Source: Cyclobacteriaceae bacterium (GTDB taxonomy: Bacteria; Bacteroidota; Bacteroidia; Cytophagales; Cyclobacteriaceae). Taken from it: a stretch of 39,274 nucleotides of DNA. The stretch is from positions 1 to 39,274 of the forward strand of contig JAOUKH010000007.1 in the NCBI GenBank assembly GCA_029882685.1, read 5' to 3'. Numbering within the stretch: the stretch's first letter is position 1; every line of letters starts with the position of its first letter. The position numbers and the translations under genes were made by a program. Under the pieces are notes generated by a model. The model made no database searches, was not told the DNA's origin, and saw only the letters and a list, made by a program, of their open reading frames with translations. This document shows, piece after piece, positions 6,301-11,691 of this stretch.

Positions 6301-7643
6301 ATCAATTGAAGCCTAAATTTATTAGTCAGGCAAAAGAAAAAGGTCATCCTGAAGATAAACTCGAAAAAATATGGAAGGATTGGGAAGCTTTTGCTGCTTA
6401 TGCTTTTAATAAATCCCACTCAACATGTTATGCGTGGATAGCCTATCAAACAGCCTATATAAAAGCTCATTATCCAGCCGAATATATGGCTTCGGTGTTG
6501 AGTAATAATATGAATGACATTAAATCGGTTACTTTCTTTATGGAAGAATGTAATCGTGCAGGAATAAATGTACTAGGCCCTGATGTGAATGAATCTAAAA
6601 CTAAATTTACTGTAAATGAAGATGGACATATTCGATTTGGACTAGGAGCAATAAAAGGTACAGGTGAGGCAGCAGTAGCTGCGATTATTGAAGAGCGAGA
6701 GGAAAACGGAAAGTTTACAGATATATTTAATTTTTCGGAAAGGGTTAATTTAAGGGCAGTAAACAAAAAAACATTTGAAAGTCTTGCCATGTCTGGAGGC
6801 TTCGATTGCTTTGCCGATATACACCGAAGACAATATTTGGTAGCACCCGAAGGGGAGCAAACGTTAATAGAAAAGTCTATACGGTATGCCAATAAAATGC
6901 AGCAAGAGGCAGAAAGCTCACAAGCTTCTTTGTTTGGAGGGTCATCAGGAGAGGAAATACCTCGACCTAAAGCACCAGAAATTGAGCCATATGGTGAGTT
7001 TGAAAAGTTGAATATTGAAAAAGAAGTAGTTGGACTTTATATTTCTGGTCACCCTTTAGATGACTTTAAATTTGAATTAGACCATTTTTGTAATGCCCAA
7101 TTGGCAGACATTGGTAATATTGAGGAACTACAGAAAAAAGGAGTGGTAAAAGTAGGTGGAATAGTATCTACTTTTGCTCATCGTACTACCAAAACAGGAA
7201 AGCCTTTTGGAACACTAACTTTAGAAGATTACAATGGTAATCACACCTTCTTTTTATTTGGCGATGATTACCTCAAGTTTAAGGAATTCTTAATGCAAGA
7301 TTGGTACTTGTTTATTACAGGAAGGGTTGAAAAACAAAAATGGGGAGAGCAACGATTGGAATTTAAAATTCAAGCCATTGAGTTGCTAAATGATTTGAGA
7401 GATAAAAAAAGTAAAGGATTTGAAATATATTTTAATCTGGACGAATTAAGCTCTGATTATGTAGAGCAGCTTGATAATATTTGTAATGAATATAAGGGGG
7501 AGTGTACACTAAAGGTGAAAATTGTAGACAAAGCCGAAAATGTGACGGTAGATTTGCTATCAAGAAAGTATAAGGTAAATCCCTCGAATGAAATGATTAA
7601 TAGTTTAAATAAGCAGAATATTGACTATAAAGTTATGATCTGA
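3354..7643 (+). CDS. dnaE: DNA polymerase III subunit alpha with N-terminal fused DnaQ-like 3'-5' exonuclease
   Basis: Exo motifs FDTETTG, GHNIEFD, HDAAYDVDATA at N-terminus; then PHP domain (HLHCHSQYS, ALTDHGNM), polymerase core (GPGRGSAAGS, PDIDIDF) and OB domain. Confidence 0.97.
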   Translation: MYLIFDTETTGLPKNWKQDYTHIDNWPRMVQLAWQLHDETGKLLENKNYIIKPDGFDIPFAVAKVHGITTERANRDGHDLKFVLEEFHHDLKRTKYNVGHNIEFDINVTGCEFFRLGDIEPLVTKLATIDTKDVSTDWCALPGGRGGKFKWPTLTELHKKLFGEGFADAHDAAYDVDATARCFFGLINQDVYVPVEIKDFKSVKYEAPKLAAANFNEDNALQEIKDSANNVLQTDADIEHLEDVSFTHLHCHSQYSVLQATSQISEMVGAAKKLNMSAIALTDHGNMMSAFHFVKAALKEEIKPILGCEFYVCPDRNDKSRQNNGDQIVLLAKNKAGYHNLAKLASIAFVEGKYYVPRIDKDILVQHKDNLIATTSGLWGEVPNLILNVGEAQAEEAFLWWKEQFEDDFYVELNRHGVEEENVVNEVLLKFAKKHDVKYFASNNTYYTEKKDAEAHDVLLCVKDSDPVSKPKKYIGKRGREFRFGFPNEEYYIKSPDEMKQLFSDLPEAIETTQEIADKIEEYTLARDVLLPKFDIPKEFQDEQDNEDDVLKIGENNFLRHLTYEGAKKRYEEITDEIKERLDFELEVIRKTGYPGYFLIVQDFIAAARKMGVSVGPGRGSAAGSAVAYCTGITNIDPIAYDLLFERFLNPDRVSMPDIDIDFDDEGRGRVMDYVIEKYGSNQVAQIITYGTMAAKSSVRDTGRVMELSLQDTSRISNLIPSTPGTSMKKIFALSDKERKEKYKGEDLALINQLIEVSEGSDLEADVLNQARVLEGSVRNTGIHACGVIITPDDITNFVPVATAKDSDMWCTQFDNSVVESAGLLKMDFLGLKTLTLIKDAVRIIKDKHGIEIDPDTIPLDDEKTYELFQHGETVGIFQYESPGMQKHMRDLKPTVFADLIAMNALYRPGPMEYIPSFIKRKHGHEPISYDLPDMEEYLKETYGITVYQEQVMLLSQKLAGFTKGEADVLRKAMGKKIMALLDQLKPKFISQAKEKGHPEDKLEKIWKDWEAFAAYAFNKSHSTCYAWIAYQTAYIKAHYPAEYMASVLSNNMNDIKSVTFFMEECNRAGINVLGPDVNESKTKFTVNEDGHIRFGLGAIKGTGEAAVAAIIEEREENGKFTDIFNFSERVNLRAVNKKTFESLAMSGGFDCFADIHRRQYLVAPEGEQTLIEKSIRYANKMQQEAESSQASLFGGSSGEEIPRPKAPEIEPYGEFEKLNIEKEVVGLYISGHPLDDFKFELDHFCNAQLADIGNIEELQKKGVVKVGGIVSTFAHRTTKTGKPFGTLTLEDYNGNHTFFLFGDDYLKFKEFLMQDWYLFITGRVEKQKWGEQRLEFKIQAIELLNDLRDKKSKGFEIYFNLDELSSDYVEQLDNICNEYKGECTLKVKIVDKAENVTVDLLSRKYKVNPSNEMINSLNKQNIDYKVMI

Positions 7644-7761
7644 TGTTACGCAAAACTATTCAATGCTGTCAGGTTGAGCTTGCCTGTGGCAGACAGGCTT
7701 GTCGAAACCTCATTCACAATCTATAACATTTTCGACAGGTTAACATATTAATGTAACATCA
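7641..7761. repeat. MITE/REP-like palindromic element with 9-bp perfect terminal inverted repeats
   Basis: TGATGTTAC (7641-7649) and GTAACATCA (7753-7761); interior hairpin GCCTGT-GGCAG-ACAGGC and CAGGTTGAGCTTG...TCGAAACCT segment. Confidence 0.5.
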
Positions 7762-7886
7762 GTCATGATATAAATGTCTTCTATATTACCATCAACAATA
7801 ATTATAGAGATCTTACCTGCTTAGGGAAACAAAAAAAATTATATTTGCGTTAGAAAGGAATAAAGAATTTTTAAATAGATATAAAA

Positions 7887-8210
7887 ATGGGAAAAACAAT
7901 AGAAATAACGGATGCAAACTTTGAAGAAGTAATGGGTTCAGAGCAGCCAATATTAGTGGATTTTTGGGCAGAATGGTGTGGACCATGTAAAATGATTGGA
8001 CCAGTGGTGGAAGAATTGGCAGGAGACTATGAAGGAAAAGCAGTAATAGGGAAAGTTAATGTAGATGAAAATCCTACAGTAGCAGCTAAGTTTGGCATCA
8101 GAAGTATACCTACCTTGTTGGTGTTTAAAGGTGGTGAAATAGTTGATAAACAAGTAGGCGCAGTACCTAAAGGAGTTTTAGCACAAAAACTTGATGCTCA
8201 GTTAGCATAG
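7887..8210 (+). CDS. trxA: Thioredoxin
   Basis: 107 aa, WAEWCGPCKMIGP active site, SIPTLLVFKGG. Confidence 0.97.
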   Translation: MGKTIEITDANFEEVMGSEQPILVDFWAEWCGPCKMIGPVVEELAGDYEGKAVIGKVNVDENPTVAAKFGIRSIPTLLVFKGGEIVDKQVGAVPKGVLAQKLDAQLA

Positions 8211-8233
8211 CTAAAATCATAATATTATTATTT

Positions 8234-8269
8234 AAAGCCCTGATTCGATCATTTTCGAATCAGGGCTTT
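8234..8269 (+). terminator. Rho-independent terminator of trxA, copy 1
   Basis: Perfect 15-bp stem AAAGCCCTGATTCGA-tcattt-TCGAATCAGGGCTTT followed by TTT. Confidence 0.85.
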
Positions 8270-8426
8270 TTTGTTATATTTCATTTCACGAGACACTAAC
8301 TTGTGTAAGGCTTAGACACCAGTTTTTTATGGTATCACCTATTATTTTTATCGCATTTTGTTTTGTCGATATGCAAATCCACCTATAAAAACCAAAATAG
8401 CTGAAATAATCTTTCAGTAACCAAAC

Positions 8427-8500
8427 TAATTTTTGGCAGCAATAATATTTTGATGCCAAATTATAGTTTTATACATTTGACTAATAAAATGTATAACTAT
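8427..8500 (+). promoter_or_regulatory. Promoter with two tandem inverted repeats upstream of the AbiE operon
   Basis: TTTG (8449-8452) - 19 nt - TACATTTG (8472-8479), Bacteroidota-type promoter; IR1 TAATTTTTGGCA/TGCCAAATTA (8427-8438/8454-8463); IR2 ATAGTTTTATACATTT/AAATGTATAACTAT (8463-8478/8487-8500). Confidence 0.6.
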
Positions 8501-8573
8501 CGTACAAAACAAACTCTATATTGACAGTTTAAAGAATCAATTTCGATCAAAAATAACATTTTCGATCTCTGAC

Positions 8574-9245
8574 TTGCTCGAATTCTATCGAACTATTGAG
8601 CCAGAAGTTAAAAAGACTACTGTCAATTGGAGGATATACAATCTTGTGCAAGAAGGTGTATTAAATAGAATTGGTAGAGGAAAGTTTTCCTTTGGTAAAG
8701 GTGATGCCTACACTCCTGAATTATCAAGTAAGTTAATCTCAGTTTACAAAAAAATAAAATTAGATTTTCCATTTTTAACAGTTTGTTTATGGAGTACTGC
8801 AACCCTTAATGAATTCATGCTTCATCAACCAGGCAGGTTTTATCGGTTAATCGAAGTAGATAAAGATGCTATGGAAAGTATTTTCTATTATTTGAAGGAC
8901 AGAAACTACTCTGTTTATATGAAACCTTCTGAGGAGTTGATTAGACGGTATATGATCAATGATAAGGAGCCATGGATTGTTAAATCACTTGTATCAGAAG
9001 CTCCAATTCAACATGTTCGTGGTATTCCGACTGTCACAATAGAAAAATTACTTGTTGACATATTTTGTGATCCCAAAATATTTAATGCACAACAGGGGTC
9101 AGAAATGAATCAAATATTTCATGAAGCTTTTGAAAAATACACAATTAATGAAAGTAAAATGCTGCGCTATGCTAGTAGAAGAAGGAAGAAAAATGAACTA
9201 GACAATTATTTAAATAAAACATCTAAATATCGACAGCAGGTATAG
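8574..9245 (+). CDS. AbiEi-like type IV antitoxin (DUF6577-type); true start uncertain
   Basis: HTH-like N-terminus (VNWRIYNLVQEGVLNRIGRGKFSFG), directly upstream of an AbiEii toxin gene. TTG start at 8574 is the first conventional start, but the open frame extends upstream to a stop at 8478-8480. Confidence 0.75.
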   Translation: MLEFYRTIEPEVKKTTVNWRIYNLVQEGVLNRIGRGKFSFGKGDAYTPELSSKLISVYKKIKLDFPFLTVCLWSTATLNEFMLHQPGRFYRLIEVDKDAMESIFYYLKDRNYSVYMKPSEELIRRYMINDKEPWIVKSLVSEAPIQHVRGIPTVTIEKLLVDIFCDPKIFNAQQGSEMNQIFHEAFEKYTINESKMLRYASRRRKKNELDNYLNKTSKYRQQV

Positions 9246-9268
9246 TTTGTTGCCGATAATTTAATTAA

Positions 9269-10339
9269 ATGATAAGTAAAGGTTCGCTACATATTGACTG
9301 GATAACTAAAGTGTCTTCAGCAAATAGAAAGGCGGACAAGATTTTAGTGGAAAAGGTTATTAGAGCCCTTATGCTATTGGAAGGATTGGTGAAACAAAAT
9401 TTGGATTTTGTATTTAAAGGAGGAACAGCTTTAATGCTAATTCTTGATTCTTCAAAAAGGCTTTCTATAGATATTGACATTATTATCGAAAAAGTTCCTA
9501 ATAACTTGGAAGAGATTTTTGAGATACTACTCGAAGAACAAGGTTTTACAAGATTCGAACTTCAGAAACGTGTAAATTTGTCAAGCATTCATAAAAAACA
9601 TTACAAGTTCTTTTATCAACCTATTCATAAAACTCAAGCTGCTGAAGAAAGCATATTGCTAGATGTTTTATTAGAAAAAGTAGGATATACTAAGATCAAT
9701 GAGGTTTCTATCAACTCCAAGTTTGTCATTTCAGATGATAAAAATCCAATTCAAGTTAAAGTACCTTCTATAGAAGATATACTGGGTGATAAATTAACAG
9801 CTTATGCTCCCAATTCTACAGGTATACCTTATTTCAAAGGTGAGACAAGTATGAGCATGGAAATCATGAAGCAGCTTTATGACGTAGGAAATCTTGTAGA
9901 CATTGCTGAAGATGGTGCACGTGTTAAAAAGACTTTTGAAAATTTTGTATCAACTGAACTTAAATATAGAAATCTATCAAAATTAACAGTTGGTGATGTT
10001 CTAGATGATATCTATCAAACTTCTCTTTGTTTAGTGAGTAGGGGTGCCGATGGAAAAGGTGATTTTGATCATCTACAAACGGGAATTCAGCGTGTTTCTA
10101 GATTTATTTTTTCAGAGTCATTCCATATTGATAGGGCTATCACATTTGCATCGAAGGCTGCATACCTTTCTATCCTGATCAAATTCAATAATACCAAGAT
10201 AGAAAAATATAAGAACCCAGCTATCATGGAAGAATGGACTATCGGGAAACCATTTTGGTCAAGGTTAAACCGCCTAAAAAAATCTAATCCAGAAGCCTTT
10301 TTTTATTGGCACAAAATATTTGAATTAGCAGAACAATAG
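9269..10339 (+). CDS. AbiEii/AbiGii-family nucleotidyltransferase toxin
   Basis: Nucleotidyltransferase signature FKGGTALMLILDSSKRLSIDIDIII and downstream VPSIEDILGDKLTAYAPNS. Confidence 0.92.
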   Translation: MISKGSLHIDWITKVSSANRKADKILVEKVIRALMLLEGLVKQNLDFVFKGGTALMLILDSSKRLSIDIDIIIEKVPNNLEEIFEILLEEQGFTRFELQKRVNLSSIHKKHYKFFYQPIHKTQAAEESILLDVLLEKVGYTKINEVSINSKFVISDDKNPIQVKVPSIEDILGDKLTAYAPNSTGIPYFKGETSMSMEIMKQLYDVGNLVDIAEDGARVKKTFENFVSTELKYRNLSKLTVGDVLDDIYQTSLCLVSRGADGKGDFDHLQTGIQRVSRFIFSESFHIDRAITFASKAAYLSILIKFNNTKIEKYKNPAIMEEWTIGKPFWSRLNRLKKSNPEAFFYWHKIFELAEQ

Positions 10340-10451
10340 AATTAATTAGAAGATTAACTGTACATTTTTATGAAAACAAAATAAGTAATACGTTCAAACA
10401 CCAAATTTCGTCCTACAGGAACACTTATCTGAGTATAGTATACTACTATAT

Positions 10452-10487
10452 AAAGCCCTGATTCGAAAATGGTCGAATTAGGGCTTT
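10452..10487 (+). terminator. Terminator hairpin copy 2, downstream of abiEii
   Basis: AAAGCCCTGATTCGA-aaatgg-TCGAATTAGGGCTTT then TTTGTT; near-identical to 8234-8269. Confidence 0.8.
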
Positions 10488-10680
10488 TTTGTTGTCATTA
10501 TTTCATGAGATAAATCTGGTGTGTAGGTATAATAAACAGAAAACACAATAGTAGTATTATAGTATTGTTTAGATTTAATTACTCTTGTTATTCTTTGATT
10601 TAGAGGAATATACTGAATTAGGATAAAAGGTAGAGCGTACATTAGCTAATAGTTAGTGGAAACAAAAAGAAATTATTTAC

Positions 10681-10757: not shown

Positions 10758-11006
10758 ATGAATACAAAACTAACATTGACAATAGAGCAAGCTTTGATTG
10801 AAAAGGCGAAAGAATACGCTAAAAGTAAAGGACGTAGCTTGTCTGATATCGTTGAAAACTATTTTAAAGCTATAGTAAAGGAAGAAGGTATTATTACAAT
10901 AGAATCGACTCCCATTTCGGATTCTCTAAGAGGTTCATTTAAAGCCCCTAAGAATTTTGATTATAAAAAAGGGTTGACCAAGGCTCTAACGGAAAAATAT
11001 TTATAA
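10758..11006 (+). CDS. DUF6364-like ribbon-helix-helix antitoxin
   Basis: MNTKLTLTIEQALIEKAKEYAKSKGRSLSDIVENYFKAIV; ATG at 10758 preferred over the ORF-track start at 10701; directly upstream of a PIN gene. Confidence 0.8.
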   Translation: MNTKLTLTIEQALIEKAKEYAKSKGRSLSDIVENYFKAIVKEEGIITIESTPISDSLRGSFKAPKNFDYKKGLTKALTEKYL

Positions 11007-11007
11007 A

Positions 11008-11433
11008 GTGGATAAGGTTTTAATTGATTCGGATGTAATTTTAGACTTATTTTTTGACAGAAAACCATTTGCCGAATATTCATCGTTAATTCTTTCACTT
11101 TGCGAGTCGAGGAAAATAAAAGGGTTTCTCACACCATTGATTTATAGTAACGTTTATTATTTATTACGACAAACTGCAAAACATGATAAAGTAATAGAAA
11201 AGTTAAGGCAGCTGTTAAAAATTACCGATGTTCTTCAAATGGATAGAGAAGTTGTAGAAAATGCTTTAAACTCTGGGTTTAAGGACTTTGAAGATAGTTT
11301 GCAAAACTATTCGGCTATTAATAATGGAAATATTGATTTAATTCTGACTCGAAATTTAAAAGATTATAAAACAAGTGAATTAGGAGTTTTTACTCCAGAG
11401 ACTTATTTAAAATCAAGAAATGCCAGCCGTTAA
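11008..11433 (+). CDS. PIN-domain toxin (VapC-like)
   Basis: VLIDSDVILDLFFDRKPF N-terminal PIN motif, GTG start 1 nt after the antitoxin stop. Confidence 0.85.
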   Translation: MDKVLIDSDVILDLFFDRKPFAEYSSLILSLCESRKIKGFLTPLIYSNVYYLLRQTAKHDKVIEKLRQLLKITDVLQMDREVVENALNSGFKDFEDSLQNYSAINNGNIDLILTRNLKDYKTSELGVFTPETYLKSRNASR

Positions 11434-11589
11434 AATTCGGTATAAAAACATAGCATGTTGCTTCGGTGCATTTCAGTTTGTAAATTTAGGCTCAGCGGGT
11501 AGTTTTATTTGCTATGGGAGGAATCCGTAATGTTTTCGTAGCGTTACCGGCAATTCGTCCTTTTTCGGGCGGGAAAATAATTACTAGAG

Positions 11590-11678
11590 GTAACGTTTTT
11601 ATGAGACTTTTACCGAAATTGATATTTTAATAAAAAGTGCGTTTAAAGCTCAATTTCGAACATTTAAAAAAACGTTAC
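11590..11678. repeat. Nested, bulged inverted repeat upstream of the orphan lipoprotein-like ORF
   Basis: GTAACGTTTTT (11590-11600)/AAAAACGTTAC (11668-11678), 11/11; nested CGAAATTGA (11614-11622)/TCAATTTCG (11650-11658), 9/9. Confidence 0.6.
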
Positions 11679-11691
11679 TTACGATAACTGC

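Follow-up and report, generated by a model that had tools for sequence, protein, structure and literature searches.

The locus raises two questions: how an AbiE-type gene pair came to lie between two near-identical copies of the terminator of trxA, and where translation of the first gene of the pair begins. The window, i.e. the whole stretch of 39,274 nt that was analysed, carries trxA, the AbiE pair, and their terminators and control elements on the forward (+) strand. We consider it probable, as an explanation of the whole, that an AbiE cassette was inserted behind trxA with duplication of the trxA flank and that AbiEi is translated from an AUC codon at position 8499.

On the evidence of sequence and fold model, the gene pair between the hairpins is an AbiE type IV toxin–antitoxin system, a type of phage defence. 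The first gene, abiEi (8499 to 9245), encodes an antitoxin and putative autorepressor of 248 aa (DUF6577), identified by Pfam, PADLOC (AbiEi, 3.6e-88) and the fold model. The second gene, abiEii (9269 to 10339), encodes a nucleotidyltransferase toxin of 356 aa (Pfam AbiEii, 1.1e-19; PADLOC AbiEii, 9.2e-131) in which the GGTAL and DID motifs are readable in the sequence. Searches of the PDB by sequence found no relatives. Comparison of folds did: the AlphaFold model, built with 53 homologues, has a pLDDT of 89.5 and its best PDB match is the streptococcal AbiEi 6y8q (E = 7.9e-5). The pair resembles the AbiE system of Streptococcus agalactiae (AbiEi/AbiEii; PMC3985639, PDB 6y8q) in being a two-gene operon with a nucleotidyltransferase AbiEii and in having an AbiEi made up of a winged helix and a C-terminal domain.

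The native gene ahead of the cassette is trxA (thioredoxin; 7887 to 8210; Pfam Thioredoxin, 2.6e-32). Its 3′ flank is present twice, as R1 (8222 to 8293) and R2 (10440 to 10510), which are about 83–84% identical in direct orientation; a gapped alignment of some 108 columns has 81 of 96 aligned bases identical. R1 contains a hairpin at 8234 to 8269 with the loop TCATTT (−25.5 kcal/mol) and R2 contains a hairpin at 10452 to 10487 with the loop AAATGG (−22.8 kcal/mol), which by its position terminates the abiE operon. As folded, both are strong terminators, and near-identical terminators do bracket the AbiE pair as the initial annotation described. That annotation also held that the second copy matches the first better as a reverse complement. 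Within the 36 nt of the hairpin this is so (34/36, against 31/36 directly), because both hairpins are palindromes that differ by one flipped 6-nt loop. Once the flanks are included, however, the direct orientation is clearly better (41 against 35 matches over 48 nt; 49 against 38 over 60 nt), and the similarity of the 3′ flanks alone, taken over the 55 nt past the hairpin, is above that of all 2000 dinucleotide shuffles. The preference of the flanks for the direct orientation argues that R1 and R2, as aligned, are a direct duplication in which the 6-nt loop is flipped. A match of at least 5/6 between one loop and the reverse complement of the other has a chance probability of about 0.01. The loop flip had been taken as a record of recombination or replication slippage; the flip itself is there, but only a local inversion within the palindrome would be needed to produce it. 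Small inversions of this kind are known from intergenic hairpins of plastids, where the orientation of the loop flips between otherwise equal stem-loops (PMC6824564), whereas here we see a single case in a bacterial chromosome with the two copies in one genome.

A terminator that is common genome-wide would speak against an island. Over the 3.43-Mb assembly the hairpin family, with its exact stem, occurs solely at these two places, and this rules out a repeated mobile element. One other hairpin, on contig C140, has a similar arm but belongs to a different terminator, whose orthologue is present in the sister genome (G001:C110); it is therefore not a product of the same event. The sister genome G001 is the sole relative of the same genus that was compared, and its trxA is 97% identical. 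Behind its trxA there is one homologous hairpin, and no AbiE was found in G001, as expected of an empty site. A MITE-like insert lies between trxA and the hairpin in G001, and an exbD-like gene (named by eye) precedes a convergent mdh. Because the hairpin is rare and G001 has one copy without AbiE, we conclude from these comparisons that the AbiE cassette was probably inserted beside trxA, duplicating the 3′ flank of trxA. G001 resembles R2 more upstream of the hairpin and R1 more overall; the sister genomes are too diverged to serve as a pre-insertion comparison for placing the joins.

Is such a duplication seen where related cassettes have entered other chromosomes? From 80 loci of related AbiEi in GTDB genomes, 53 were testable for repeats, by aligning the 600 nt upstream with the 600 nt downstream of each cassette. 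Direct repeats of 39–207 nt, 73–100% identical, bracket the cassette at 16 of the 53; among these, L139 and L143 may be dispersed repeats and L112 and L113 are one site. Repeats were found in none of 46 trxA or infC loci and in none of 66 shifted comparisons of the same AbiE loci (0/112 together), these controls being ordinary loci rather than other acquired cassettes, so that a general property of acquired regions could also fit. The repeat differs in sequence from locus to locus: it consists of adjoining sequence and is unrelated to the trxA hairpin. At L112/L113 it is the start of a relA/spoT-like gene and at L106, L130, L144 and L156 it comprises the final codons of open frames. The L112 site has relatives with a single copy of its repeat and no AbiE, in a wider neighbourhood that differs.

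That the repeats are specific to their loci argues against an attachment site at the hairpin, and inspection of the joins of the repeats revealed no shared motif, which makes a site-specific mechanism unlikely. Judged on these alignments, duplication of a flank during non-site-specific recombination fits better than an attachment site. Homology-facilitated illegitimate recombination or single-crossover integration could be the source of such footprints. The former, and the related acquisition of effector–immunity modules, have been described (PMC3240628, PMC5361080); these cases are alike in that a module comes to lie beside conserved sequence with an anchor of homology on one side and a non-homologous join on the other. 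They differ in that here there is only a possible footprint, the duplicated flanks, and the mechanism itself is not observed. The insertion would have gone as follows. An AbiE type IV toxin–antitoxin cassette of about 2.1 kb enters directly behind trxA, by a route that we take to be non-site-specific recombination anchored on the neighbouring sequence, and about 70–110 nt of the trxA 3′ flank is doubled. The gene trxA would thereby retain its terminator, the extra copy of the flank would supply the abiE operon with one, and the 6-nt loop of one copy would have flipped by a small inversion within the palindrome. Bracketing repeats may thus be a simple footprint of the entry of defence cassettes into chromosomes.

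Three other accounts of the duplication have to be weighed against this one. The cassette might have been part of a circle that carried the trxA 3′ flank of another strain and entered the chromosome through one homologous crossover, in which case the two copies differed from the beginning. Circles are well known to integrate in this way (PMC3240628), and this would account for an R1/R2 identity of only 84% when some of the other bracketing repeats reach 87–100%. It predicts, however, that G001 should resemble R1 on the left and R2 on the right, and on the left G001 shares the short exact match GTATACTACT with R2; moreover, the inspected close relatives of this AbiE neither lie behind trxA nor have the trxA hairpin. 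We regard the circle as possible but rather less probable than flank duplication at the site. The same relatives bear on the idea that the cargo was acquired with its own copy of the terminator: six were inspected (AbiEii 84–56% identical), all without the trxA hairpin, and they give the idea no support. On plasmids and phages only distant homologues of AbiEi were found, which speaks against a vehicle of either kind.

A palindromic repeat at either end of the cassette invites a further reading: a site-specific mobile element would use the hairpin as its attachment site, and the flip of the loop would be a trace of the element's recombination. This we consider highly improbable. There is no recombinase between the hairpin copies, where abiEi and abiEii are the only genes; the repeats at other AbiE loci vary in sequence and length and, on inspection, have no common motif at the joins; and the hairpin is found nowhere else in the genome. 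The view of the hairpin as an insertion or excision boundary thus survives in one part, since G001 has a single copy without AbiE and repeats bracket related cassettes, and finds no support in the other, that of a special recombination site. Slightly less probable still is that no insertion took place and that the two terminators are alike by chance or convergence. Intrinsic terminators do have GC-rich stems and T-runs in common, and both genomes have stems of the type AAAGCCCT..AGGGCTTT at a few further sites, but the specific stem is unique to the two sites, the similarity extends for 55 nt past the hairpin beyond anything in the shuffles, and G001, without AbiE, has a single copy.

The second question concerns the start of abiEi. 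The first canonical start codon in frame is TTG at 8574 to 8576, and there is no ATG, GTG or TTG in the frame before it. Homologues, however, are conserved for 25 codons upstream of this TTG, as far as an ATC at 8499 to 8501. In 45 loci there is no canonical in-frame start before the conserved N-terminus. In abiEi itself, no ATG, GTG or TTG could begin the conserved N-terminal helix-turn-helix. ATC stands at the aligned first codon in 60 of the 70 loci that the alignment reaches; once gaps are allowed, 66 of 80 scored sequences (the window included) have ATC there and five have ATG, while only 17% of internal isoleucine codons are ATC. Clustering at 70% identity gives ATC as the majority codon in 26 of 33 clusters, and clustering at 80% in 40 of 50. 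Homologues L054, L103 and L119 have ATG at the position of the ATC. We compared 51 close pairs of loci, which were picked for having ATC, so that identity of this codon within pairs is no evidence. In the eight in-frame codons upstream of the ATC, changes are equal at the three codon positions (154/154/148), whereas codons 2–25 show an excess of changes at the third position. Coding constraint thus begins at the ATC. In the context of initiation, position −3 is a purine in 97% and positions −12/−13 have A, comparable with initiation sites of Bacteroidetes (PMC6847099). Taken together, these comparisons make it appear that AbiEi starts at AUC (8499), which is probably a weak start, and that most of its relatives across Bacteroidota likewise begin with AUC. 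Other AbiEi subfamilies start with ATG, including that of S. agalactiae, from which the AUC start proposed here differs.

A start at TTG 8574 or at canonical codons further in, with the conserved ATC not being a start, is the choice of ORF finders restricted to ATG, GTG and TTG. It could draw on the streptococcal system, where the C-terminal domain alone is enough for antitoxicity (PMC3985639), and on the replacement of ATC by TTC in some Balneolota. We nevertheless think it improbable. The first downstream canonical codon ranges from codon 6 to codon 117 among homologues, codons 2–25 are under constraint of the protein type, several homologues have ATG at the same site, and a protein begun at the TTG would be without helix 1 of the predicted winged helix and without part of helix 2. 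The replacements concern L218, L229, L232/L162 and L237/L172, whose named records are Balneolota: ATC GCA has become TTC GCA or TTC GCC, and this group has no consistent canonical start. Conservation of the codon might therefore partly serve something else. An N-terminus supplied by an upstream ATG and a frameshift is ruled out, as a close upstream ATG is present in only 7 of 66 loci. In the window, a short out-of-frame ATG frame (8489 to 8524; MYNYRTKQTLY) overlaps the ATC; it is not conserved (7/66 loci). The Pfam DUF6577 match to the window protein begins only at residue 41 of the form that starts at AUC, and this suggests that gene callers restricted to ATG, GTG and TTG truncate the abiEi family. 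In the open-access literature searched we found no report of antitoxins, AbiEi among them, that start at AUC, which is not proof of absence.

Upstream of the AUC there is an inverted repeat, CTAATTTTTGGCAGCAA..TTGATGCCAAATTATAG (8426 to 8466), whose GGCA..TGCC core is present in 64 of 66 ATC loci and which we regard as a putative operator. Within it, the TTTG read at 8449 to 8452 is presumably the −33 element, following the Bacteroidetes promoter pattern. A putative −7 box, TACATTTG (8472 to 8479), lies 19 nt before the ATC; across loci the ATC sits a median of 18 nt past the −7 box, downstream of the inverted repeat. In S. agalactiae, AbiEi represses its own operon from inverted repeats (PMC3985639). 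There the operator is made up of two inverted repeats of 23 bp with 3 bp between them, whereas here it would be one 41-bp region over a Bacteroidetes-type promoter. We infer that AbiEi binds the inverted repeat at 8426 to 8466, and it would then repress its own operon from a repeat that overlaps the promoter, as in S. agalactiae.

AUC is a very rare start codon in bacteria and, besides that of infC, we know of few AUN starts that are kept by selection. The gene infC encodes IF3, and the abiEi start is like that of infC in being a selected, non-canonical AUN codon, the ATC of abiEi being conserved in its homologues. In the host and its relatives, infC itself probably starts at ATT or ATC; in relatives of the same order (L175–L193) such a codon is common and frequently comes directly after AAGGAGG, and finding this sequence at infC is noteworthy, since Shine–Dalgarno sequences are seldom used in the phylum. 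The two genes differ in that infC here has AAGGAGG before its start and abiEi is without a Shine–Dalgarno sequence, and in that infC encodes the discriminating factor itself while abiEi encodes a defence antitoxin. The AUU start of infC in Escherichia coli is required for translational autocontrol (Butler et al., 1987, as cited in PMC9845219). By analogy, the weak AUC codon would keep the synthesis of AbiEi low and sensitive to the conditions of initiation. Low synthesis should be tolerable, since a type IV antitoxin need not bind its toxin one to one. We hypothesize that IF3 may control the translation of AbiEi. More tentatively, and with considerable doubt, we suggest that an AUC start kept throughout the family, in Bacteroidota and neighbouring phyla, ties the supply of antitoxin to discrimination by IF3, so that a disturbance of initiation, e.g. 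by phage, would shift the balance between toxin and antitoxin. A defence antitoxin with AUC in dozens of species would make start-codon strength a conserved means of toxin–antitoxin control.

Finally, the surroundings of the cassette contain further repeats and small genes. Directly behind the second terminator (10758 to 11433) there is a likely second toxin–antitoxin pair with DUF6364 and PIN_3 domains. The content of the trxA–mdh interval is quite different in the sister genome, and the interval therefore looks like a variable site. A MITE-like inverted-repeat element lies between dnaE and trxA (7640 to 7770), with eight matching places in the genome; it differs from the MITE-like insert that separates trxA from its terminator in the sister genome. 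At 11431 to 11550 and 11547 to 11690 there are two distinct intergenic repeats of 100–140 nt. The first of these, bounded by TAA(C) and GTTA, is similar to an integron attC site, with no integrase in view. Both are present in several copies in this genome and the sister genome, and they mostly adjoin unrelated small ORFs, including toxin–antitoxin genes.
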